Shown one piece after another: positions 17,966 through 28,968 of a stretch of 42,127 bases of DNA (position 1 is the stretch's first letter; each line of letters begins with the position of its first letter). The notes beneath the pieces were generated by a model, which worked only from the letters and a program-made list of their open reading frames with translations, ran no database searches and was not told the origin of the DNA. The DNA is from Coprobacter sp. (GTDB lineage: Bacteria; Bacteroidota; Bacteroidia; Bacteroidales; Coprobacteraceae), in the NCBI GenBank assembly GCA_022511245.1, contig JAFLRV010000004.1, positions 1-42,127 on the forward strand, in the 5' to 3' direction. A program made the position numbers and the translations under genes.

Positions 17966-19615
17966 ATGAGACTACTTTGGATTGACCTGAACAGTTCCTA
18001 TACCCATGCTTCGCTGGCTTTGCCGGCCATACATGCACAGATACCGGATGACCCGATGGTCAAATGGACGGTCGTATCGGCCACCATCAATGAAAATATC
18101 GGAACCATCGTGGAGAATGCCGCCCGATACCGGCCCGATATCATCGCCGCAACAACATGGCTTTTCAACCGGGAGGTGCTGTTGCATGTCATATCCCGTC
18201 TCAAGACACTTTTTCCGGCGGCCACCGTCATTTTGGGAGGCCCCGAATTTTTAGATAAAAACTATGTTTTCTTACAGTCACACCCCTATATCAACTGTGT
18301 CTTTCGGGGCGAAGGAGAAGAGCATTTCCCGCAATGGCTTCAGGTGGTCTATGATGTCGAACAGTGGGAAAACATCGCCGGACTCTGTTATTTCGACAAC
18401 CGGGGAACATATCACGACAACGGTACAGCCCATGTACAGCAATTCGACCGGCTGAAAGCTCCCGAATCGAGCCGTTTTTTCAACTGGGAGAAACCGTTTG
18501 TTCAGCTGGAAACGGCTCGGGGATGCTTCAATACCTGTGCCTTTTGCGTGAGCGGCGGAGAAAAACCGGTACGGACCCTTCCCGTCGAAAGTATACGTAC
18601 CCGGCTGCAAAACATCGCCGCTCACGGCATACGGGAAGTCCGCATACTCGACAGAACGTTCAATTACGACGCCGCACGGACACAAGCATTGCTCGCCCTT
18701 TTCTGTGAGTTCAAAGACACCCTGCGGTTCCATGTAGAGGTTCATCCGGGATTGCTCACCGACAGCATAAAAGAAACACTCCGCAACATCCCGTCGGGAT
18801 TGCTGCATATCGAAGCCGGCATACAAAGTCTGCACGAAGAAGTACTTGAACGCTGTGAACGTAAAGGCGATTTCAAGAATTCGCTGGAAGGACTGACTTT
18901 TTTGTGTCACCTGCCCAATGTGAAAACCCATGCCGATTTAATTGCCGGACTGCCGTTGTACCGTTACAAAGACATTATCGAAGACGTGCATATACTGGCA
19001 TTAATCGGAGCCGAAGAGATACAGCTCGAATCCCTTAAAATTCTTCCGGGCACGGTCATGAGAAACCAGGCCGTCCAATGGGGCATACGATACGCTCCCC
19101 TGCCGCCTTATGAAGTGCTGCAGACCGATGACATGTCGACCGGCGAACTGCAGCAGGCCCGTCGGCTGTCCCGCCTGCTCGACTACTATTACAACTGCCC
19201 GGCATGGAGACGCATCACCCGCCAGCTTATATTGAGGGAATGCGATTTTATCATCCGGTTTCTCGAATACCTCACGGATTGCGGCGCAATAGAAAAACCG
19301 CTGAGCATCGAAAAACGGGGGCTCCTGCTTTATACGTTCTGTCGGAGAGAATATCCTCGACATGCCGAGTCCGTGTCGGTTGCTTGGATTCAGGCCGGCA
19401 TGTCCCTGAAAAAAGAGCCGGCAAAGGGAATCCGGACCAAAGGTTTACAACCGCCGTCCGACTGGAGAATCATCGAAGGCGAATATCGTGAAAACATGAA
19501 ACTCTGCACCCTGACGGGAACCAACATTCAATATTGGTTCGGCTACGACATCCGGGAGAAACAGGGAGTTCCGCACATGGTAGCCATTACCGATTTGCAG
19601 AAATCTCCCGAATAA
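17966..19615 (+). CDS. B12-binding radical SAM protein with C-terminal DUF4080
   Basis: This 549-aa protein has an N-terminal cobalamin-binding Rossmann-like domain (about residues 1-125, with DIIAATTWLFNREVL and VILGGPEF). A radical SAM core follows, with the iron-sulfur cysteines C187, C191 and C194 in GCFNTCAFC. The C-terminal 150-200 residues contain YEVLQTDDMSTGELQQARRL and ILRECDFIIRFLEYL, a DUF4080 region. Related enzymes carry out B12-dependent methyl transfer or other radical chemistry, but this branch has no established substrate. It stands alone with its own likely promoter, and the Crp-type gene starts 52 bases downstream. Cobalamin use is inferred from the domain order. The cysteine motif is seen directly. 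Confidence 0.9.
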   Translation: MRLLWIDLNSSYTHASLALPAIHAQIPDDPMVKWTVVSATINENIGTIVENAARYRPDIIAATTWLFNREVLLHVISRLKTLFPAATVILGGPEFLDKNYVFLQSHPYINCVFRGEGEEHFPQWLQVVYDVEQWENIAGLCYFDNRGTYHDNGTAHVQQFDRLKAPESSRFFNWEKPFVQLETARGCFNTCAFCVSGGEKPVRTLPVESIRTRLQNIAAHGIREVRILDRTFNYDAARTQALLALFCEFKDTLRFHVEVHPGLLTDSIKETLRNIPSGLLHIEAGIQSLHEEVLERCERKGDFKNSLEGLTFLCHLPNVKTHADLIAGLPLYRYKDIIEDVHILALIGAEEIQLESLKILPGTVMRNQAVQWGIRYAPLPPYEVLQTDDMSTGELQQARRLSRLLDYYYNCPAWRRITRQLILRECDFIIRFLEYLTDCGAIEKPLSIEKRGLLLYTFCRREYPRHAESVSVAWIQAGMSLKKEPAKGIRTKGLQPPSDWRIIEGEYRENMKLCTLTGTNIQYWFGYDIREKQGVPHMVAITDLQKSPE

Positions 19616-19640: not shown

Positions 19641-19648
19641 TATATTTG
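19641..19648 (+). promoter_or_regulatory. Candidate -7 box for the first Crp/Fnr-type gene
   Basis: TATATTTG matches TAnnTTTG and lies 19 bases before the ATG at 19668, without a -33 TTTG at the right distance. It suggests that the regulator has its own promoter rather than depending on the radical SAM gene. Confidence 0.35.
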
Positions 19649-19667: not shown

Positions 19668-20243
19668 ATGCAAGAATTCATCGACTATCTACAGGATAAA
19701 CTGCAATTATCGGCCCTGCAAACCGAAATGCTGAAAACCCGTATCGTTGCCCAACATTTCAAGAAAGGAGAGATACGGGTCAATTCCGCCGAATTCGAAG
19801 GCCAGCTGTTCTATATCCGGCAGGGCTGCTGCCGCAGTTTTTACCTGAAAGACGGGAAAGACATTACGTTCTCTTTCGCCCTCGAAGGCGACCTGTTGGT
19901 TTCGATACGTTCCAAAGCGACCCAAAAAGACTATCCGGAAATCATAGAATTTCTCGAAGACACCGAAGCCTTTTCGCTGAAACTGCCTCCGATTGACAAA
20001 GCCGGCAAAAATTTCCCCCAAATTACCCGTTTCGCCCTGAACATCTTGTACCGCTACAATATCTTTCTGGAAGAACGCATCATCAACCTGCAATGCAAAA
20101 CAGCCAAAGAACGTTACGAATGGCTGCTTTCGAAACATCCGAAACTCCTGCAAAGAGCCCCGTTGGGCCATATCGCCTCTTTTTTGGGTATAACGCCGGA
20201 AACACTCAGCCGCATACGGGCCGATAAAAAAAAGAACCTCTAA
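19668..20243 (+). CDS. Crp/Fnr-type transcriptional regulator, upstream of the RND operon
   Basis: This 191-aa protein has an N-terminal cyclic-nucleotide-binding-like beta-roll (about residues 20-110, with FEGQLFYIRQGCCRSFYLKDGKDITFSF split over strands). A dimer helix follows, then a C-terminal winged helix with HIASFLGITPETLSRIRAD (168-186) as the helix-turn-helix. No cysteine cluster of the FNR kind is seen. The ligand is unknown; Bacteroidota have many such short members. It is followed after about 70 bases by a near-perfect 22-bp palindrome in front of the RND operon. Its recognition helix TLSRIRA is identical to that of the second regulator at 28393-28968. Control of the efflux operon is inference from this geometry. 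Confidence 0.9.
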   Translation: MQEFIDYLQDKLQLSALQTEMLKTRIVAQHFKKGEIRVNSAEFEGQLFYIRQGCCRSFYLKDGKDITFSFALEGDLLVSIRSKATQKDYPEIIEFLEDTEAFSLKLPPIDKAGKNFPQITRFALNILYRYNIFLEERIINLQCKTAKERYEWLLSKHPKLLQRAPLGHIASFLGITPETLSRIRADKKKNL

Positions 20244-20312
20244 TCACTTTTTGCCGGAAGCAAAGTCAGCCTATCCCCCATTTTTTAACCTCCTTTATTA
20301 TTATTTGTACAG

Positions 20313-20334
20313 CTTTTTGACAAAAATCAAAAAG
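20313..20334 (+). promoter_or_regulatory. Predicted Crp/Fnr-type operator of the RND efflux operon
   Basis: A perfect 8-bp inverted repeat, CTTTTTGA-CAAAAA-TCAAAAAG, has the 5-6-5 core geometry TTTGA-N6-TCAAA used by Crp/Fnr dimers. Its centre (20323.5) lies about 41 bases upstream of the start point expected from the -7 box at 20353-20360, which is a class II activator position. A partial extra copy of the right half, CAAAAATCAA, recurs 20 bases downstream (20341-20350). Confidence 0.6.
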
Positions 20335-20352: not shown

Positions 20353-20360
20353 TACTTTTG
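20353..20360 (+). promoter_or_regulatory. -7 box of the RND efflux operon
   Basis: TACTTTTG matches TAnnTTTG. No -33 TTTG is present; that position is occupied by the right arm of the palindrome at 20313-20334, as expected for an activator-dependent promoter. The leader to the ATG at 20441 would be about 75 bases. Confidence 0.55.
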
Positions 20361-20440
20361 CAGTCGATTTTATCCGTGACGGATAAATATTCCCGAGAAA
20401 ATAGTAAATTTAAGAAGATAACAATCAAAACAAGCTGACA

Positions 20441-21613
20441 ATGAAAATTAGCAATTTTATGACTCATCCGTTTCAGAAAGTCATTATCATCGCCTTGTCT
20501 CTGTCACTGTTTGCCTGTGACAAAAAAGGACAAACCTCGCAAAATGCCGTACCGGAATACGCTGTTATCACCCTTGCTCCCGAAGCCATAGAGCTTAACA
20601 GCAGCTATCCTGCCACGATAAAAGGCTGCCAGGATATCGAAATCAGACCCAACGTCGGCGGATTCATTACTAAATTGTGCGTAGACGAAGGCTCCATAGT
20701 GCGAAAAGGACAACTCTTGTTTGTTATCGACCCCATTCCGTATCAGGAAGCGGTCAAGGTAGCCGAAGCCAACGTCAAGGTAGCCGAAGCCAACGCCGCA
20801 ACAGCAGAACTTACGGTCAACAACAAAAGAGAACTCCGAAAGAAAGATATCATCAGCGATTACGACCTGCAGATGGCCGAAAACCAGCTGGCCACCCAAA
20901 AAGCCGTGCTGGCACAGGCACAAGCACAGCTGACCACCGCCCGCAACAACCTTTCCTACACGCAGGTAACCAGTCCGTCCGACGGTATCGTCGGCAACAT
21001 ACCTTTCCGTACCGGAAGTCTGGTCGGCCCCACATCGGCTACTCCGCTGACCGTCGTTTCAGACATTACCAAAATGTATGTATATTTCTCGATGAACGAG
21101 AAACAAATTCTTGACCTTACCCGGCAGGGGAACGGCGCTCTGGCCCAAATGCCCGAAGTGCAGTTGCAGCTGGCAGACGGAAGCATCTATCCCGAAACCG
21201 GAAAAATCGAGACGTTGAGCGGTGTTATCGACCCGGCTACCGGAGCAGCCAGCATCCGGGCGACATTCTCGAATCCCGACAAAATACTGCGCAGCGGCGG
21301 TTCCGGTAAGATTCTGGTACCCGTCAAAAACGATGCCGCCCTTGTTATTCCTCAAAAAGCCACCTACGAAATACAGGACAAACGGTATGCATTCGTAGTG
21401 AACGACAGCTCGACCGTAAAGATTGCCGGCATCGAGGTGCTGCCTATCAATAACGGGCAGCAATATGTCGTCACCTCCGGACTGAATGCCGGCGACCGCA
21501 TCGTAGTCGAAGGCGTGGGAACGACCGTCCGGGACGGAATGACCATCAAACCCATTACCCCCGAAGAATCGGCAGCCAAAATCCAACAGGTTACACAAGC
21601 CGCCCAAAAATAA
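20441..21613 (+). CDS. RND efflux periplasmic adaptor subunit (AcrA/MexA-like lipoprotein)
   Basis: This 390-aa membrane fusion protein has a lipoprotein signal ending LSLFAC (cysteine 26). The barrel-sandwich strand reads IEIRPNVGGFITKLCVDEGSIVRKGQLLF, then comes the alpha-hairpin (about residues 100-170), the returning lipoyl half YTQVTSPSDGIVGNIPFRTG, and a beta-barrel/membrane-proximal domain. It links the inner-membrane pump to the outer-membrane channel. A perfect 21-bp tandem repeat (20753-20794) encodes two copies of VKVAEAN in the first hairpin helix. It is the first gene of a four-gene operon behind the palindrome at 20313. The drug or lipid substrate cannot be told from sequence. 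Confidence 0.93.
   Translation: MKISNFMTHPFQKVIIIALSLSLFACDKKGQTSQNAVPEYAVITLAPEAIELNSSYPATIKGCQDIEIRPNVGGFITKLCVDEGSIVRKGQLLFVIDPIPYQEAVKVAEANVKVAEANAATAELTVNNKRELRKKDIISDYDLQMAENQLATQKAVLAQAQAQLTTARNNLSYTQVTSPSDGIVGNIPFRTGSLVGPTSATPLTVVSDITKMYVYFSMNEKQILDLTRQGNGALAQMPEVQLQLADGSIYPETGKIETLSGVIDPATGAASIRATFSNPDKILRSGGSGKILVPVKNDAALVIPQKATYEIQDKRYAFVVNDSSTVKIAGIEVLPINNGQQYVVTSGLNAGDRIVVEGVGTTVRDGMTIKPITPEESAAKIQQVTQAAQK
20753..20794 (+). repeat. 21-bp perfect tandem duplication inside the adaptor gene
   Basis: Two adjacent identical 21-base units, 20753-20773 and 20774-20794, encode the heptad VKVAEAN twice in the coiled-coil hairpin. The frame is kept. The hairpin length seems normal for the family, so this may be replacement or convergence rather than a recent insertion. 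Confidence 0.8.
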
Positions 21614-21672: not shown

Positions 21673-24600
21673 ATGAAATTAGACAGATTTATAAAACGCC
21701 CGGTACTATCGACGGTAATCTCCATACTTATCGTCATATTGGGTATACTGGGACTTATATCGTTGCCGGTAACGCAATACCCGACTATAGCCCCGCCGAC
21801 CGTACAGGTAAGCACCTCCTACACCGGAGCCAATGCCCAGACGGTGCTGAACAGTGTCATCGCCCCGCTGGAAGAGCAGATTAACGGAGTGGAAAACATG
21901 ATGTATATGACCTCTACCGCCGCCAATACGGGAGAAGCCACTATTCAGGTATATTTCAAACAGGGAACCGACCCCGACATGGCCGCCGTAAACGTGCAGA
22001 ACCGGGTAGCCAAAGCGCAGGGATTCCTTCCCGCCGAAGTTACCCGTGTAGGTGTCATCACCAGCAAGCGGCAGACCAGTATGCTCATGAGTATTTCCGT
22101 GTTCAGTTCCGACGACCGGTACGACGAAACATTTCTCCAGAACTATGTAAAGATTAATCTGATACCTCAGATTCAGCGTGTGGCCGGTGTCGGCGACGCC
22201 ATGGTGCTGGGAGCCGACTATTCGATGCGTATATGGCTCAAGCCCGATGTTATGGCACAGTACAAGCTCATGCCGAGCGATATCTCCGCCATTCTGGCCG
22301 AACAGAACATCGAAGCCGCTCCGGGACAGTTCGGCGAAAGCGGCGAACAGTCGTTCCAGTACATCATGAAATACAAAGGACGCCTCTCCACCCCCGAAGA
22401 ATTTGAGGAAATTGTAGTGCGTGCCACCGAAGACGGAGAGGTGCTGCGGCTGAAAGACATAGCCCGCATCGAATTGGGCGGATTGTCCTACGGATTCGGT
22501 ACCCGTACCAACGGACATCCCGGCGTAACGGCCATGATATTCCAGACCGCCGGCTCCAATGCCACAGAAATTATCAACAACATCAGCGAAATTCTCAAAG
22601 AGTCGTCCAAAGATTTTCCGCCGGGCGTGAAATACGATGTCCTGCTGAATGCCAATGATTTCCTCTACGCCTCTATCCATGAGGTATTGAAAACGCTGTT
22701 GGAAGCATTTATTCTGGTATTCCTCGTGGTATTCATCTTCTTGCAGGATTTCCGTTCGACACTGATTCCGGCCATTGCCATTCCGGTGGCGCTGGTAGGT
22801 ACATTCTGCGTACTTTCTTTAATCGGATTCAGCCTTAACCTGCTCACCCTCTGTGCCCTTGTACTGGCCATTGCGATAGTGGTCGATGATGCGATAGTAG
22901 TCGTCGAAGCCGTACATGCCAAACTGGATCAAGGTTACAAGTCACCGATGAAAGCCTCTATCGATGCCATGAACGAGATCTCGGGTGCCATTGTTTCCAT
23001 TACGTTGGTCATGATGTCGGTATTTATCCCCGTAAGTTTCATGCCGGGAACCTCCGGAACCTTTTTCCGTCAGTTCGGTCTGACGATGGCTATCTCTATC
23101 GGTCTGTCGGCCGTGAACGCCCTTACGCTGAGTCCCGCACTCTGTGCGCTGTTCCTCAAACCCCATCAGGAGGACGGAGACAACAGCGGCAAAAAAAGTT
23201 TGATGAAACGGTTCCACACCGCCTTCAATACAGCATACGATGTCACCCTCGAAAAATACAAAAAGGGAGTCATGGTATTCATCAACAAAAAATGGTTGGG
23301 ATTCGCAGCCGTTGTCATCAGTATCGCAGCTTTGGTACTCTTGATGAAAAACACCCCGACCGGACTGGTGCCCAACGAAGACACCGGCACCTTCTTTGTC
23401 GTAGTCGATATGCCGCCGGCCACCTCGTTGGAACGGACAAAAGCCGCTTTGAAAGAAATCGACAACCTGATAGCATCGAACCCGGCCGTCAAGAGCCGTA
23501 CCGAGATTGCCGGTTACAGCTTCATCGCCGGACAGGGAAGTTCATACGGAACATTCATCTGCAAACTCAAGCCGTGGGAAGAGCGAGGCAAAGGGCAAGA
23601 TGTCAATTCAGTAGTGGGAACATTGTATATGCAGGCCATGAATCTGATTAAAGATGCCCGGGTGCTGGTATTTGCACCCCCGATGATTCCGGGATACAGT
23701 ATCACCAACGGTTTCGAACTGAATCTGCAGGACAAGACCGGAGGCGATTTGGACAAATTCTACTCCATCGCCCAGAACTTCCTGGCCAAACTGAACGAAC
23801 GGCCCGAAATTTCGGCCGCCCGCACCCTGTTTAACCCCAGTTATCCGCAATACATGGTGGATATCGACGTGGCCAAGTGCAAACAGGCCGGAATCAGTCC
23901 GAGCACCCTGCTGACCGCATTGCAAGGGTACTACGGCGGATTGTATGCCTCCAACTTCAACCGGTTCGGAAAACTCTACCGGGTCATGATACAGGCCGAT
24001 GCCAATTTCCGGGTCAATCCCGAAACGCTGAACCAGATTATGATTCGCAACGGCAACGACATGGCGCCTATCACCCAGTTCATGACCCTGCGTAAAGTAT
24101 ACGGTCCTGACAATATCAAGCGGTTCAACATGTTTACCGCCATGTCGATTAACGGTTCCCCCGCACCCGGCTACAGTTCAGGACAAGCCATTCAGGCAAT
24201 TGAAGAGGTAGCCAAAGAAACGCTGCCGGCCGGCTACGGATACGAATATTCCGGTATGACACGGGAAGAACAAAGTTCCAGCGGAAATACCACCTATCTG
24301 ATATTCCTGCTCTGTTTCGTATTCGTTTACCTGCTGTTGAGCGCACAGTACGAAAGCTATATCCTGCCGTTGGCCGTTATCCTTTCGGTACCGTTCGGAT
24401 TGATGGGCAGTTTCATCTTTGCCCAGTTCATGGGAGTAGAAAACAACATCTACATGCAAATCGCCCTGATTATGCTCATCGGTCTGTTGGCCAAAAATGC
24501 CATACTTATCGTTGAGTTCGCCCTCGAACGCCGGCAAACCGGAATGAGCATCGTTTCGGCAGCCGTTCTCGGAGCTTCGGCCCGGTTGCGTCCCATCCTG

Positions 24601-24852
24601 ATGACCTCTCTGGCAATGGTTATCGGATTGCTGCCCATGATGTTCGCACACGGTGTAGGAGCCAACGGAAACAGTACACTGGGAACCGGAGCCATCGGAG
24701 GTATGTTCATCGGTATGATTTGCCAGATATTCGTCGTACCGACCCTGTTCGTAGCTTTCCAGAGTTTGCAGGAAAAATTCAAACCTATCGAATGGAAAGA
24801 CCTCGACAATACCGAATTCGAAGCCGATATCGAGCAATATATCAGCAAGTAA
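21673..24852 (+). CDS. RND efflux pump inner-membrane subunit (HAE1 family, AcrB-like)
   Basis: This 1059-aa, twelve-helix pump belongs to the hydrophobe/amphiphile efflux family. It begins MKLDRFIKRPVLSTVISILI, has the first porter domain with ISLPVTQYPTIAPPTVQVST, and the helix-4 aspartate pair in LAIAIVVDDAIVVVEAV that relays protons. The second half repeats the plan, with GLLAKNAILIVEFALERR and a closing GTGAIGGMFIGMICQIFVVPTLF. Length and motifs are complete. It lies 59 bases after the adaptor and 21 before the outer-membrane factor. It would form a tripartite pump driven by proton flow that exports compounds from periplasm or inner-membrane leaflet. The substrate range is not predictable here. 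Confidence 0.95.
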   Translation: MKLDRFIKRPVLSTVISILIVILGILGLISLPVTQYPTIAPPTVQVSTSYTGANAQTVLNSVIAPLEEQINGVENMMYMTSTAANTGEATIQVYFKQGTDPDMAAVNVQNRVAKAQGFLPAEVTRVGVITSKRQTSMLMSISVFSSDDRYDETFLQNYVKINLIPQIQRVAGVGDAMVLGADYSMRIWLKPDVMAQYKLMPSDISAILAEQNIEAAPGQFGESGEQSFQYIMKYKGRLSTPEEFEEIVVRATEDGEVLRLKDIARIELGGLSYGFGTRTNGHPGVTAMIFQTAGSNATEIINNISEILKESSKDFPPGVKYDVLLNANDFLYASIHEVLKTLLEAFILVFLVVFIFLQDFRSTLIPAIAIPVALVGTFCVLSLIGFSLNLLTLCALVLAIAIVVDDAIVVVEAVHAKLDQGYKSPMKASIDAMNEISGAIVSITLVMMSVFIPVSFMPGTSGTFFRQFGLTMAISIGLSAVNALTLSPALCALFLKPHQEDGDNSGKKSLMKRFHTAFNTAYDVTLEKYKKGVMVFINKKWLGFAAVVISIAALVLLMKNTPTGLVPNEDTGTFFVVVDMPPATSLERTKAALKEIDNLIASNPAVKSRTEIAGYSFIAGQGSSYGTFICKLKPWEERGKGQDVNSVVGTLYMQAMNLIKDARVLVFAPPMIPGYSITNGFELNLQDKTGGDLDKFYSIAQNFLAKLNERPEISAARTLFNPSYPQYMVDIDVAKCKQAGISPSTLLTALQGYYGGLYASNFNRFGKLYRVMIQADANFRVNPETLNQIMIRNGNDMAPITQFMTLRKVYGPDNIKRFNMFTAMSINGSPAPGYSSGQAIQAIEEVAKETLPAGYGYEYSGMTREEQSSSGNTTYLIFLLCFVFVYLLLSAQYESYILPLAVILSVPFGLMGSFIFAQFMGVENNIYMQIALIMLIGLLAKNAILIVEFALERRQTGMSIVSAAVLGASARLRPILMTSLAMVIGLLPMMFAHGVGANGNSTLGTGAIGGMFIGMICQIFVVPTLFVAFQSLQEKFKPIEWKDLDNTEFEADIEQYISK

Positions 24853-24873: not shown

Positions 24874-26250
24874 ATGAAAAAACAAATCTTATATACCGTA
24901 TGTCTGGCAACCTTGATGAGCAGCTGCCACATATACAAATCCTACGACCGTCCCGATGTCGACATACAAGGACTTTACCGGGATCCTGTCTCTGTACGGG
25001 ATACGCTGGTGTCGGACACGGCCAATATGGGAAATCTGCCTTGGAAAGAGATTTTCACCGACCCGCAGCTGCAAATACTCATACAAACCGGACTGGAACG
25101 CAATACCGACCTCCAGAACGCCCTGTTGAGCGTAAAACAGGCCGAAGCCGGACTGACAGCCGCCCGCATGGCCTATGTCCCCACACTGGCGCTGGCTCCG
25201 CAGGGAGGTATCAGCAGTTTCAACAACATCTCCTCCGGATGGACATGGACAGCTCCGGTCGCTGCCAGCTGGGAAATCGACATCTTCGGCAAGCTGCTGA
25301 ATGCCAAACGGAAAGCCAAAGTAACACTGTTGCAAAGCGACGATTACCGGCAGGCCGTACAAACACAAGTTATCTCGGCCATCGCTTCATATTACTATAC
25401 CCTGCTGATGCTCGACAAACAACTTGCCATCAGCCAGGAAACAGTCGTATTGTGGGACAAAAGCCTGGAGACGATGCGGGCCATGAAACAGGCCGGCATG
25501 CTTAACGAAGCGGCCATTGCCCAAAGCGAAGCCAACAGCTATATGGTCAAGACCTCCATTCCCGAAATGAAAAAACAGATTCGGGAAATCGAAAACGCCC
25601 TGTCGCTGCTGCTCCGGCAGGTACCCCAGACCATAGAGCGGGGAACTCTCGATGCACAGACCTTCCCGGCAGCCATTCAGGTCGGCATCCCGGCACAGCT
25701 GCTCTCGAACCGGCCCGATGTAAAAGCGGCTGAAATGGCTCTGGCCGCCGCCTATTACGATACCAACAGTGCCCGTGCCAACTTTTACCCGCAGCTTACA
25801 CTCTCCGGGACACTCGGCTGGACCAATCAGGCCGGAAGCATGATTATCAATCCGGGCAAAATGATTCTTTCGGCACTGGGTTCACTCACCCAACCCCTCC
25901 TCTATCGGGGAGCCAATATCGCCCAGCTGAAAATAGCCAAAGCCCGGCAGGAAAGTGCCAGACTCAGCTTCGAACAGGCTCTTCTGAATGCCGGCAGCGA
26001 AGTGAGCAACGCCCTTTCCCAATACGAAACGGAACGGCAAAAAAGCGCACTGCGGGAAAAACAGATTGAATCGCTGGAAAAATCGGTCGAATACACCCAG
26101 CAGCTGCTCACGCTGGGCACCTCCACCTATCTGGAAGTACTTACCGCACAACAATCGCTGTTGAGCGCACAACTCTCGGAAGTTACCGACAATTTCCAGC
26201 AGATGCAAGCCATCGTCAACCTCTACCGGGCATTGGGCGGAGGAAGATAA
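24874..26250 (+). CDS. RND efflux outer-membrane lipoprotein (TolC/OprM-like factor)
   Basis: This 458-aa protein is of the NodT/OprM type. Its lipoprotein signal MKKQILYTVCLATLMSSC ends at cysteine 18. Two long repeats of coiled-coil helices and strands follow, with LPWKEIFTDPQLQILIQTGLERNTDLQ, VAASWEIDIFGKL and IPAQLLSNRPDVKAAE in the first part and TQPLLYRGANIAQLKIAKARQ and LEVLTAQQSLLSAQL in the second. These are classic marks of the outer-membrane channel of tripartite pumps. It starts 21 bases after the pump gene and is followed 14-26 bases later by the LpxA-like gene, so all four are probably one transcript. Confidence 0.94.
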   Translation: MKKQILYTVCLATLMSSCHIYKSYDRPDVDIQGLYRDPVSVRDTLVSDTANMGNLPWKEIFTDPQLQILIQTGLERNTDLQNALLSVKQAEAGLTAARMAYVPTLALAPQGGISSFNNISSGWTWTAPVAASWEIDIFGKLLNAKRKAKVTLLQSDDYRQAVQTQVISAIASYYYTLLMLDKQLAISQETVVLWDKSLETMRAMKQAGMLNEAAIAQSEANSYMVKTSIPEMKKQIREIENALSLLLRQVPQTIERGTLDAQTFPAAIQVGIPAQLLSNRPDVKAAEMALAAAYYDTNSARANFYPQLTLSGTLGWTNQAGSMIINPGKMILSALGSLTQPLLYRGANIAQLKIAKARQESARLSFEQALLNAGSEVSNALSQYETERQKSALREKQIESLEKSVEYTQQLLTLGTSTYLEVLTAQQSLLSAQLSEVTDNFQQMQAIVNLYRALGGGR

Positions 26251-26276
26251 AATAGTAACCTTAAATGAATAACAGT

Positions 26277-27056
26277 ATGATCAGTCCATTGGCTTATGTA
26301 AATCCGAATGCAAAAATCGGAGAAAACGTCACAATACACCCGTTTGCCTATATCGACGAAAATGTCGAAATCGGAGACAACTGTACCATCATGCCCTATG
26401 CCAGCATCCTGTCCGGCACACGCATGGGAACCGGAAACACGGTATATCAGGCCGCTATCATCGGAGCGACCCCGCAAGATTTCAAGTTCAAGGGAGACAA
26501 CACGTTTGTAATCATCGGAGACAACAACACCATCCGGGAAAAAGTAATTATCAACCGGGCGACATTCGAAGGCGATGCTACCGTTGTAGGTAACGGCAAT
26601 TACATTCTCGAAGGTGCCCATATCGCCCACGACACCCGCGTAGGAAATGGATGCGTATTGGGGAACGGCACCAAAACCGCCGGCAACTGCACCCTCGATG
26701 ACTCAGCCATACTGGGCAGCGGCGTCATTCTCAAACATGGCTGCCACATCGGAGGCTGGACGCTAGTCCGGGACGGGAGCCGTGTCAACAAAGACGTACC
26801 GCCTTATATTATCGCCGCTCACAACCCCATCGGCTATTCCGGCATCAATGCTGTTCTGCTGTCGAAACAGGGCCATCTCAGCGACGAGATTCTCGACAAT
26901 ATCGCCAAAGCCTACCGGCAGATTTACCAATGCGGCACCAGCCTGAACAATGCCCTGCGCAATATCCGGCAGATGGTAACGCTGTCACCCGAAATCGAAT
27001 ACATTCTCCGATTCATCGAACAGTCCGACAAAGGCATCATCGGAAACGTACAGTAA
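26277..27056 (+). CDS. LpxA-like acyl-ACP--UDP-sugar O-acyltransferase, divergent paralog
   Basis: This left-handed beta-helix acyltransferase (259 aa from this start) has hexapeptide repeats through about residue 180 and an LpxA-type helical C-terminal tail. An upstream ATG at 26265 is possible, but MISPLAYVNP aligns with the start of E. coli LpxA (MIDKSAFVHP). The catalytic His (E. coli H125) and H122 are kept in AHIAHD. However E. coli H99, H144, H160 and the acyl-length ruler G173 are replaced by N, N, K and D, and R204/R205 by K/Q. It is not beside lpxC/fabZ or lpxD, and closes the RND operon. It may acylate a different sugar or use a different acyl chain. The residue mapping is my own alignment. 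Confidence 0.85.
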   Translation: MISPLAYVNPNAKIGENVTIHPFAYIDENVEIGDNCTIMPYASILSGTRMGTGNTVYQAAIIGATPQDFKFKGDNTFVIIGDNNTIREKVIINRATFEGDATVVGNGNYILEGAHIAHDTRVGNGCVLGNGTKTAGNCTLDDSAILGSGVILKHGCHIGGWTLVRDGSRVNKDVPPYIIAAHNPIGYSGINAVLLSKQGHLSDEILDNIAKAYRQIYQCGTSLNNALRNIRQMVTLSPEIEYILRFIEQSDKGIIGNVQ

Positions 27057-27129: not shown

Positions 27130-28326
27130 CTATCCCATTATATATTTCCCGACTTTGGGTATGCGCTGCAGACACACGGAGACGACAGCGACACAGACAA
27201 AGGCGCACACCGCAGAAAGCAGTATCTCGGCCGGAGCCGTCCAGAATCCCAGCCGGCTCTGAAGCCCGGTACCTAACCAATCACGGATTCCCGCAGACAG
27301 GGGAACCAATATCAGCAGATGACACAGATACATCCCGTAACTGGCTTTGGAAACCGGCAATACGACACGCCGATACCCCTTGCCTGAGGCCGTTATTTTG
27401 CGCAAAACGAGAATCCACGCCACCGTCATCAATGCGACTCCGACGGTGTCATTACACCAGGTCGTTTCCCACCAAACGGCTTTTTCAACCAACCCTTCCA
27501 CCGGGAAACAGCCACCGGCTGTCGCCAGCACCCTCCGCCAGAAACCGCCGAACGATACGGCAAAACCGACTAAATAACAGGGGACAGCCACAGCAAGACT
27601 TCTTTTCCACGACAGGTCACCGACAAATTTCCGGAAATAAAGCCCCAGTAACAGATAGCCGATAAAACCGCTGAAATAGTAAAATACCCCGTACCCGTTC
27701 CAGCTGGCCTCACCCCAAAGGGGGAACAATGCCTGACGGGGCAATCCCGACGGGCCGTAAATCACCGTCGGCTCTCCGCCGGCAACCCAGTCCCGAATTA
27801 ACGGAATCAACGTGGTAAAGAAACAGACTCCCAAATAAAACTGAAGTTCTTTTTTCTCCACTTTTTCAGCCCACGAAGAGAGCAGAGGCATCAAAAGATA
27901 GACCCCCAGCAACATGTATACATACCACAAATGACCTGCCGAATAATTGAAATTAAGCAGTAAATTTTTAAAATTGTCGGCCGGCTCGCCCCATACCAGT
28001 GCGTAAATTACCGACCAAAGGGCGAACGGAATCAAAATCCGCACGGCCCGGCGACGGAAAAATTCACCGGTCGAATAGTGAAGCGGGAACTGCAAATAAC
28101 TGGATATTACGACAAAAACAGGCACACAGGCCCGGACTACGGTGTCGAAAAACGCTGTCCAGAAAGCATCGGTTCCGGTAAGAATGAGCGAACCGTCACC
28201 ACCCAAATAAAAAGGTTCCGTACTGTGTACCACGATAACCATAAAACAGGCCAGCATGCGTGCCCAGTCCATCCATACCGTCCGTTTTGCATCTTGTGCT
28301 TGAATTGTTTTTTCCATTGTATTCAC
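27130..28326 (-). CDS. Acyltransferase family 3 membrane protein (OatA/WecH-like)
   Basis: This 398-aa integral membrane protein has about ten hydrophobic segments and no soluble SGNH domain. The first segment has DWARMLACFMVIVVHSTEPF, with the arginine and histidine of the acyltransferase-3 family, followed by RRRAVRILIPFALWSVIYAL and SKASYGMYLCHLLILVPL near the end. Family members move acetyl or other acyl groups across the membrane onto sugars, peptidoglycan or lipids. The start may be 28326 or 28317. The gene is preceded by a TTTGA-N6-TCAAA palindrome directly after the second Crp/Fnr gene, and ends at the strong terminator at 27074. The target is unknown. Confidence 0.85.
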   Translation of the reverse strand: MNTMEKTIQAQDAKRTVWMDWARMLACFMVIVVHSTEPFYLGGDGSLILTGTDAFWTAFFDTVVRACVPVFVVISSYLQFPLHYSTGEFFRRRAVRILIPFALWSVIYALVWGEPADNFKNLLLNFNYSAGHLWYVYMLLGVYLLMPLLSSWAEKVEKKELQFYLGVCFFTTLIPLIRDWVAGGEPTVIYGPSGLPRQALFPLWGEASWNGYGVFYYFSGFIGYLLLGLYFRKFVGDLSWKRSLAVAVPCYLVGFAVSFGGFWRRVLATAGGCFPVEGLVEKAVWWETTWCNDTVGVALMTVAWILVLRKITASGKGYRRVVLPVSKASYGMYLCHLLILVPLSAGIRDWLGTGLQSRLGFWTAPAEILLSAVCAFVCVAVVSVCLQRIPKVGKYIMG

Positions 28327-28342
28327 TCTTTAACTGATAGTG

Positions 28343-28350
28343 CAAAATAG
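28343..28350 (-). promoter_or_regulatory. Degenerate -7 element for the acyltransferase gene
   Basis: CTATTTTG on the minus strand resembles TAnnTTTG with one base fewer between TA and TTTG. Its last G is 36.5 bases from the centre of the palindrome at 28372-28387, exactly as in the RND promoter. Confidence 0.35.
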
Positions 28351-28371: not shown

Positions 28372-28387
28372 TTTGATATGCATCAAA
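28372..28387 (-). promoter_or_regulatory. Predicted Crp/Fnr-type operator of the acyltransferase gene
   Basis: TTTGAT-ATGC-ATCAAA is a perfect 6-bp inverted repeat with TTTGA-N6-TCAAA geometry; it also contains TTGAT-N4-ATCAA, the FNR consensus form. It lies between the stop of the second Crp/Fnr gene (28393) and the acyltransferase start (28326), in the same relative position as the operator at 20313-20334. Confidence 0.55.
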
Positions 28388-28392
28388 AAAAG

Positions 28393-28968
28393 CTATAAAG
28401 CCCTTATCCGGCTCAGGGTCGCCGGATCCATTCCCAGATAGGAGGCAATATCTCCCAGCGAAGCACGGGAGGAGATTTCGGGAAACTGTTCCCGGAACAT
28501 CTTATACCGGCTTTCGGCCGGAAGAGTCAGCCGCTCTTTGTGGGAGCGGTGCAACCGGCGGTATTCATTCTGGTGTATCACCCGGCCCCAGTTGCATAAC
28601 TGCAAGTTGTTGCAAAACAAATTTTCCAGTGCGGGCAGCGCAATCCGCCACGCCTCGACCGGTTCTGCCGCCTGAGCATATTCCTGACTGGGCAATCCGT
28701 AATACAATTCATCCATGCTGAATACCAAACCGCCTTCAATCGTAAACGAAGTGACAATCTCTTTTCCGTCCTCTAACCAAAAATGGCGTATCAAACCCTT
28801 CTCGATAAACCATGCATAGCGGCAGAACGCATCGCCCCGAAGAATCATCTCTTTTTTCCGGAAACGGCACTCTTCCAGCTGTCCAGCCAGCAGCGATACC
28901 GTCGCCTCGTCGACGGGAACCACTCTCCGCATCATCTCCAGAAACCGGCTTTGGCTGAACGCTATCAT
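28393..28968 (-). CDS. Second Crp/Fnr-type transcriptional regulator
   Basis: This 191-aa protein is the same length as the regulator at 19668. Its beta-roll sensory domain (KKEMILRGDAFCRYAWFIEKGLI, HFWLEDGKEIVTSFTIEGG) leads to a C-terminal helix-turn-helix with DIASYLGMDPATLSRIRAL at 173-191. The recognition helix TLSRIRA is identical in the two proteins although the sensory halves differ, so they should read a similar DNA site. It begins 7 bases after the DUF5009 acetyltransferase stop and precedes an operator-like palindrome and a second acyltransferase. No FNR-type cysteine cluster is visible, so the signal is unknown. Joint control of the neighbouring envelope genes is inference. Confidence 0.9.
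   Translation of the reverse strand: MIAFSQSRFLEMMRRVVPVDEATVSLLAGQLEECRFRKKEMILRGDAFCRYAWFIEKGLIRHFWLEDGKEIVTSFTIEGGLVFSMDELYYGLPSQEYAQAAEPVEAWRIALPALENLFCNNLQLCNWGRVIHQNEYRRLHRSHKERLTLPAESRYKMFREQFPEISSRASLGDIASYLGMDPATLSRIRAL

Follow-up and report, generated by a model that had tools for sequence, protein, structure and literature searches.

How is the RND efflux operon of a gut Bacteroidales bacterium controlled when a gene for a small Crp/Fnr-family protein lies just upstream of it and the gap between the two holds a palindrome? The question arises from the window analysed here, a stretch of 42,127 nucleotides of Coprobacter sp. DNA (contig JAFLRV010000004.1), in which positions 20313-20334 read CTTTTTGACAAAAATCAAAAAG, that is, CTTTTTGA-CAAAAA-TCAAAAAG. 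The palindrome is the perfect 8-6-8 inverted repeat that the initial annotation had described. Its core, TTTGA-N6-TCAAA, occupies 20316-20331, and from its conservation and uniqueness it is taken as a putative FNR-type operator, with no strand assigned. In promoters of the Bacteroidota, a TAnnTTTG box has its centre at -7, and TTTG recurs as a second element around -33 (PMC7366714). A box that follows the former consensus (TACTTTTG, 20353-20360, plus strand) lies 21 bp after the operator core, and the promoter of the operon has no TTTG at -33, where the right arm of the palindrome sits instead. Both the box and the missing -33 TTTG had been recognized at the outset. The distances given with them need a small correction: 18 bases, not 19, lie between the palindrome and the box (19 is the difference between 20334 and 20353), and 69, not 70, between the palindrome and the end of the regulator gene at 20243; the layout itself stands.

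The genes downstream are all on the plus strand and encode a periplasmic adaptor (20441-21613; TIGR01730, E 2.7e-74), an AcrB-type efflux permease (21673-24852; ACR_tran, E 3e-301; TIGR00915 over its cut-off), an outer-membrane factor (24874-26250; TIGR01845 over its cut-off) and a second LpxA, a UDP-GlcNAc acyltransferase (26265-27056; TIGR01852 and NF003657 over their cut-offs). Adaptor, AcrB-type permease and outer-membrane factor together have the composition of a tripartite RND operon of the HAE-1 type, as judged from the encoded proteins, and the four genes in the window are separated by gaps of only 59, 21 and 14 bases. Each of the five Coprobacter genomes has two copies of lpxA, one of them away from the operon. 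In Bacteroides thetaiotaomicron, the lipid A gene BT_3336 likewise has an oprM-type efflux gene on its 5' side (PMC7366714), and a connection of pump with lipid A may therefore reach beyond the regulator studied here. Adaptor homologues in other Bacteroidales, about 43 to 49% identical, belong to operons with different company. Inspection of the sequences by eye finds a divergent AraC-like neighbour in some (e.g. L235, L237, L239, L243 and L247), an upstream MarR-like neighbour in others (L241, L248, L249 and L250) and no obvious regulator near several close relatives. Thus Crp/Fnr control of the present operon looks lineage-specific. In a literature search that covered few subscription journals, no paper dealt with RND efflux under Crp/Fnr control in Bacteroidales.

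The regulator (19668-20243, plus strand) is a protein of 191 residues with the recognition helix TPETLSRIR; a possible -7 box for its own gene, TATATTTG, is suggested by the bases at 19641-19648 on the same strand. Its match to the Pfam family cNMP_binding is weak and below the cut-off of that family, and NCBIfam gives no match. A profile search started from the regulator retrieves Crp/Fnr proteins of known structure, and its predicted structure (pLDDT 84) matches FNR, CRP and GlxR over the full length with Z of about 17; in this model about 185 of the 191 residues align to CRP and FNR chains with an rmsd of about 2.6. The architecture of the Crp/Fnr superfamily, with an N-terminal double-stranded β-helix, a long dimer helix and a C-terminal winged helix, is thus present in the predicted fold. 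The recognition residues E-x-x-S-R of FNR are preserved as ETLSR, and the accompanying site reads TTGAY-N4-RTCAA in five genomes. The site, a two-fold symmetric 22 bp with N6 between 5-bp half-sites, is conserved beside the regulator gene and covaries with the recognition helix. It had been called a Crp/Fnr-type operator, which is right as to type, and the narrower name FNR-type fits it better. The cysteine set that holds the 4Fe-4S cluster of FNR is absent: the only cysteines of the regulator are C54, C55 and C143, and C54 and C55 are not retained in every orthologue. No residues of the cAMP phosphate-binding cassette were found in the regulator by eye. The protein is neither a true FNR nor a recognizable cAMP-CRP.

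Loss of the palindrome from orthologous intergenic regions had been named in advance as a finding that would overturn the annotation. A scan of genome contigs gave only five loci. In all five Coprobacter genomes TTTGAYAWAWATCAAA lies in the gap from regulator to RND adaptor, and exactly 21 bp further on comes TAnnTTTG. The regulator orthologues of the other four genomes are 45 to 79% identical. Across the five genomes the distance from the stop codon of the regulator to the core varies from 72 to 90 and that from the core to the start codon of the adaptor from 104 to 174, while the gap from core to box is constant, indicating that what stays fixed is the register to the -7 box. The pattern TTTGA-N6-TCAAA-N19..23-TAnnTTTG has exactly one match in each of the five genomes, every time at the RND locus, and the reversed control pattern has none in any of them. 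If the box is relaxed to TTTG only, the five genomes together yield one extra match, which lies behind the window's second Crp/Fnr gene; the other four genomes still show the RND site only. Two further bare cores occur in the genome, both out of register. A wide regulon can therefore be set aside, as the register-constrained pattern is found nowhere else in the five genomes apart from the place behind that second Crp/Fnr gene. In the same five genomes, a gene for a B12-binding radical SAM protein with DUF4080 (17966-19615 in the window) lies directly 5' of the regulator; it was not detected in the stretches examined from other families.

The order regulator, adaptor, pump, outer-membrane factor and LpxA also occurs in G089, G184 and G262, three genomes that belong to a second family, and in G029, a genome of a third, so that regulator and operon are syntenic in nine genomes in all, and LpxA is retained in the operon across these nine genomes and three families. 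In the second and third families the helix of the regulator has ETLYR instead of ETLSR and the sites read (A/T)ATGA-N6-TCATA, an altered form of the Coprobacter palindrome; the register in the second family is longer by one, at 34 rather than 33. In the alignment, the residue that differs falls on Ser212 of E. coli FNR, which contacts the first T of TTGAT. In a further genome, G137 (loci L230 and L075), the operon has retained TATGA-N6-TCATA and the offset to TTTG is unchanged, with the ETLYR regulator on another contig. Regulator and operon are likely to be truly separated in this genome, whose assembly is in pieces, and their arrangement would point to control in trans. A second conserved element, TTTAAC-N4-TTT(A/G), is present at 20284-20297 on the plus strand of the window in a single copy. 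Its start lies 32-33 bp 5' of the operator core in eight of eight genomes of two families, a spacing measured directly and not through a multiple DNA alignment, since the intergenic regions aligned poorly; it is absent from the third family and from the other regulators. This element may be the site of a second factor or an upstream promoter element.

The same geometry recurs far outside these operons. From 294 genomes of the order, together with the relatives collected earlier, 149 distinct regulators were taken with their flanks, palindromes were required to have at least 6 of 7 symmetric pairs, and the offset was measured from the centre of the palindrome to TTTG. On the 3' side of the regulator genes the offsets peak sharply at 33 nt (29 of the 149 regulators), compared with 0 to 7 regulators at each other tabulated offset and 0.3 in shuffles. 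On the 5' side there is no peak, with 2 regulators at offset 33, and autoregulation of the regulators is accordingly rejected. Nor is the peak a general property of Bacteroidales DNA: of 3705 palindromes in other parts of this DNA (1.03 Mb), 39 stand at offset 33 and no peak is seen. At the cut-off used, an in-register site accompanies only 62 of the 149 relatives. Counted over all in-register sites, the two arms both have G at half-site position 4 in 28 of 28 cases where the helix carries ET at the positions equivalent to CRP E181-T182, and in 10 of 32 where it does not. When each cluster at 40% identity is represented by a single regulator, these numbers fall to 12/12 and 3/19 (Fisher p 3e-6), although such clustering removes shared ancestry only in part. 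This covariation links the regulators to the sites 3' of them. It agrees in kind with the published behaviour of CRP, whose positions 180 and 181 covary with operator bases, and of HcpR2 proteins without E181, which have the motif GTAACnnnnGTTAC (PMC1274295).

Placing the box at 20353-20360 at -7 gives a predicted start near 20364 and puts the centre of the palindrome at about -40.5, with its right arm over -33. In a class II promoter the operator has its centre near -41.5, at a set distance from the core promoter. The register here is constant within the genus and peaked across relatives, and the class II position proposed by the initial annotation is in keeping with the predicted start. Its overall reading, a Crp/Fnr switch on the RND operon, is likewise supported by the conservation in all five Coprobacter genomes and in two further families. 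According to this reading, the protein encoded at 19668-20243 would bind the palindrome as a dimer, contact RNA polymerase from about -40.5 and activate the class II promoter, switching on adaptor, pump, outer-membrane factor and second LpxA as one operon. The operator would replace the missing -33 element, so that the promoter should depend on the regulator, and the regulator appears to have a single target. Dependence on an activator is the natural reading of a class II geometry in which the operator stands in place of the -33 element. It is likely, judging from the arrangement and its conservation, that the protein is an FNR-like, one-target class II activator of the adaptor-pump-outer-membrane factor-LpxA operon, with binding, activation, the start site and co-transcription through LpxA as its predicted parts. 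The recurrence of the layout across the order makes it a well-supported case of a familiar type of gene switch.

The direction of control calls for some caution, as a site near -41 can also serve repression. The regulator might bind the palindrome and repress the operon by shielding the -33 region for as long as no signal frees it; the operator overlaps the position of a -33 element, and Crp/Fnr proteins can act as repressors. However, a distance to the -7 box that is fixed across many promoters is what contact with polymerase demands, whereas a repressor tolerates varied positions, and a -33 TTTG is missing from the promoter itself. Repression is thus unlikely, and activation by the neighbouring regulator remains the preferred reading.

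Less probable still is a reading in which some other Crp/Fnr protein of the cell occupies the palindrome and the neighbouring regulator has a different target. One candidate is the second Crp/Fnr-family regulator of the window (28393-28968, minus strand), a separate system that provides a parallel example of the same layout: the operator TTTGATGCATATCAAA at 28372-28387 is followed by the -7-like box CTATTTTG at 28343-28350 in the same TTTG register, in one genome only. Because this regulator also stands before a TTTGA-N6-TCAAA site, cross-talk is possible. The half-site, however, changes with the recognition helix of the neighbour, regulator and site occur together in nine genomes, and the remaining four Coprobacter genomes have the RND site alone, all of which favours the neighbour as the binder.

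An RNA hairpin, acting as terminator of the regulator transcript or as a 5' leader element, is rejected as highly improbable. The RNA fold is stable (-7.9 kcal/mol, better than all 200 shuffles), but its context does not fit: no U-run follows the palindrome, the palindrome lies 5' of the predicted start, and among relatives the arms outside the core vary without compensation while the core and its distance to the -7 box are kept. As for chance, when the 197-base intergenic stretch was shuffled 5000 times with its dinucleotides preserved, 54 shuffles (1.1%) held a perfect 8-6-8 repeat and 8% held 8-bp arms with an even gap of no more than 20, so that the palindrome alone, taken without comparison, would be only suggestive; the core with the register-constrained -7 box arises in 0 of 5000. 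Together with the comparative evidence the palindrome is far beyond chance, and coincidence, opposed by conservation in five genomes, a fixed register and a pattern found once per genome, is rejected as having a negligible probability.

Among known systems, FNR of E. coli and of A. fischeri (TTGATnnnnATCAA box) shares the full-length fold, the ETxSR helix, the TTGAY half-site and the class II spacing. It differs in having an N-terminal set of Fe-S cysteines and a global regulon, whereas the present regulator lacks that set, has 191 residues and apparently serves one local target. HcpR1 and HcpR2 of anaerobes resemble it in being FNR-like without the cysteine motif, in often having a small regulon beside their own gene and in an operator whose bases track CRP positions 180 and 181; in Bacteroides, hcp is the sole target of HcpR2 (PMC1274295). 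HcpR, reported to bind haem in Porphyromonas gingivalis (PMC12750200), controls hcp and redox genes, while the target here is an efflux operon. CrpPg of P. gingivalis is likewise a Crp/Fnr protein of the Bacteroidales, and one that does not depend on cAMP, but it is reported to regulate globally and to use a CRP-like box (PMC12040651). The AraC- and MarR-neighboured RND operons of other Bacteroidales have a homologous adaptor with a different regulator family alongside.

This RND efflux operon of gut Bacteroidales thereby gains a putative regulator and operator and a likely mode of action, in an arrangement that is not a one-off, and a switch shared by the pump and the second LpxA suggests that export and the make-up of lipid A are controlled together. 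The geometry and the helix-operator code, which hold for many small Crp/Fnr proteins of the order, form a more interesting result than the single locus. An invariant register with covariation offers a direct route to predicting the targets of many such proteins. It seems rather likely that the Bacteroidales hold a large set of one-target Crp/Fnr activators placed directly 5' of their targets, with a single register relative to the -7 box and a code that can be read from helix to operator. If so, target and site of many uncharacterized regulators could be read from sequence, and the target here would be one that joins drug efflux to a second LpxA.

The gene 3' of the TTTGATGCATATCAAA operator (27130-28326, minus strand) belongs to Acyl_transf_3, and several relatives elsewhere likewise precede acyltransferase genes. 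A further half-site class is seen at L128 and L139, where regulators with a VTLC helix have an in-register TTTAA-N6-TTAAA before acyltransferase genes.
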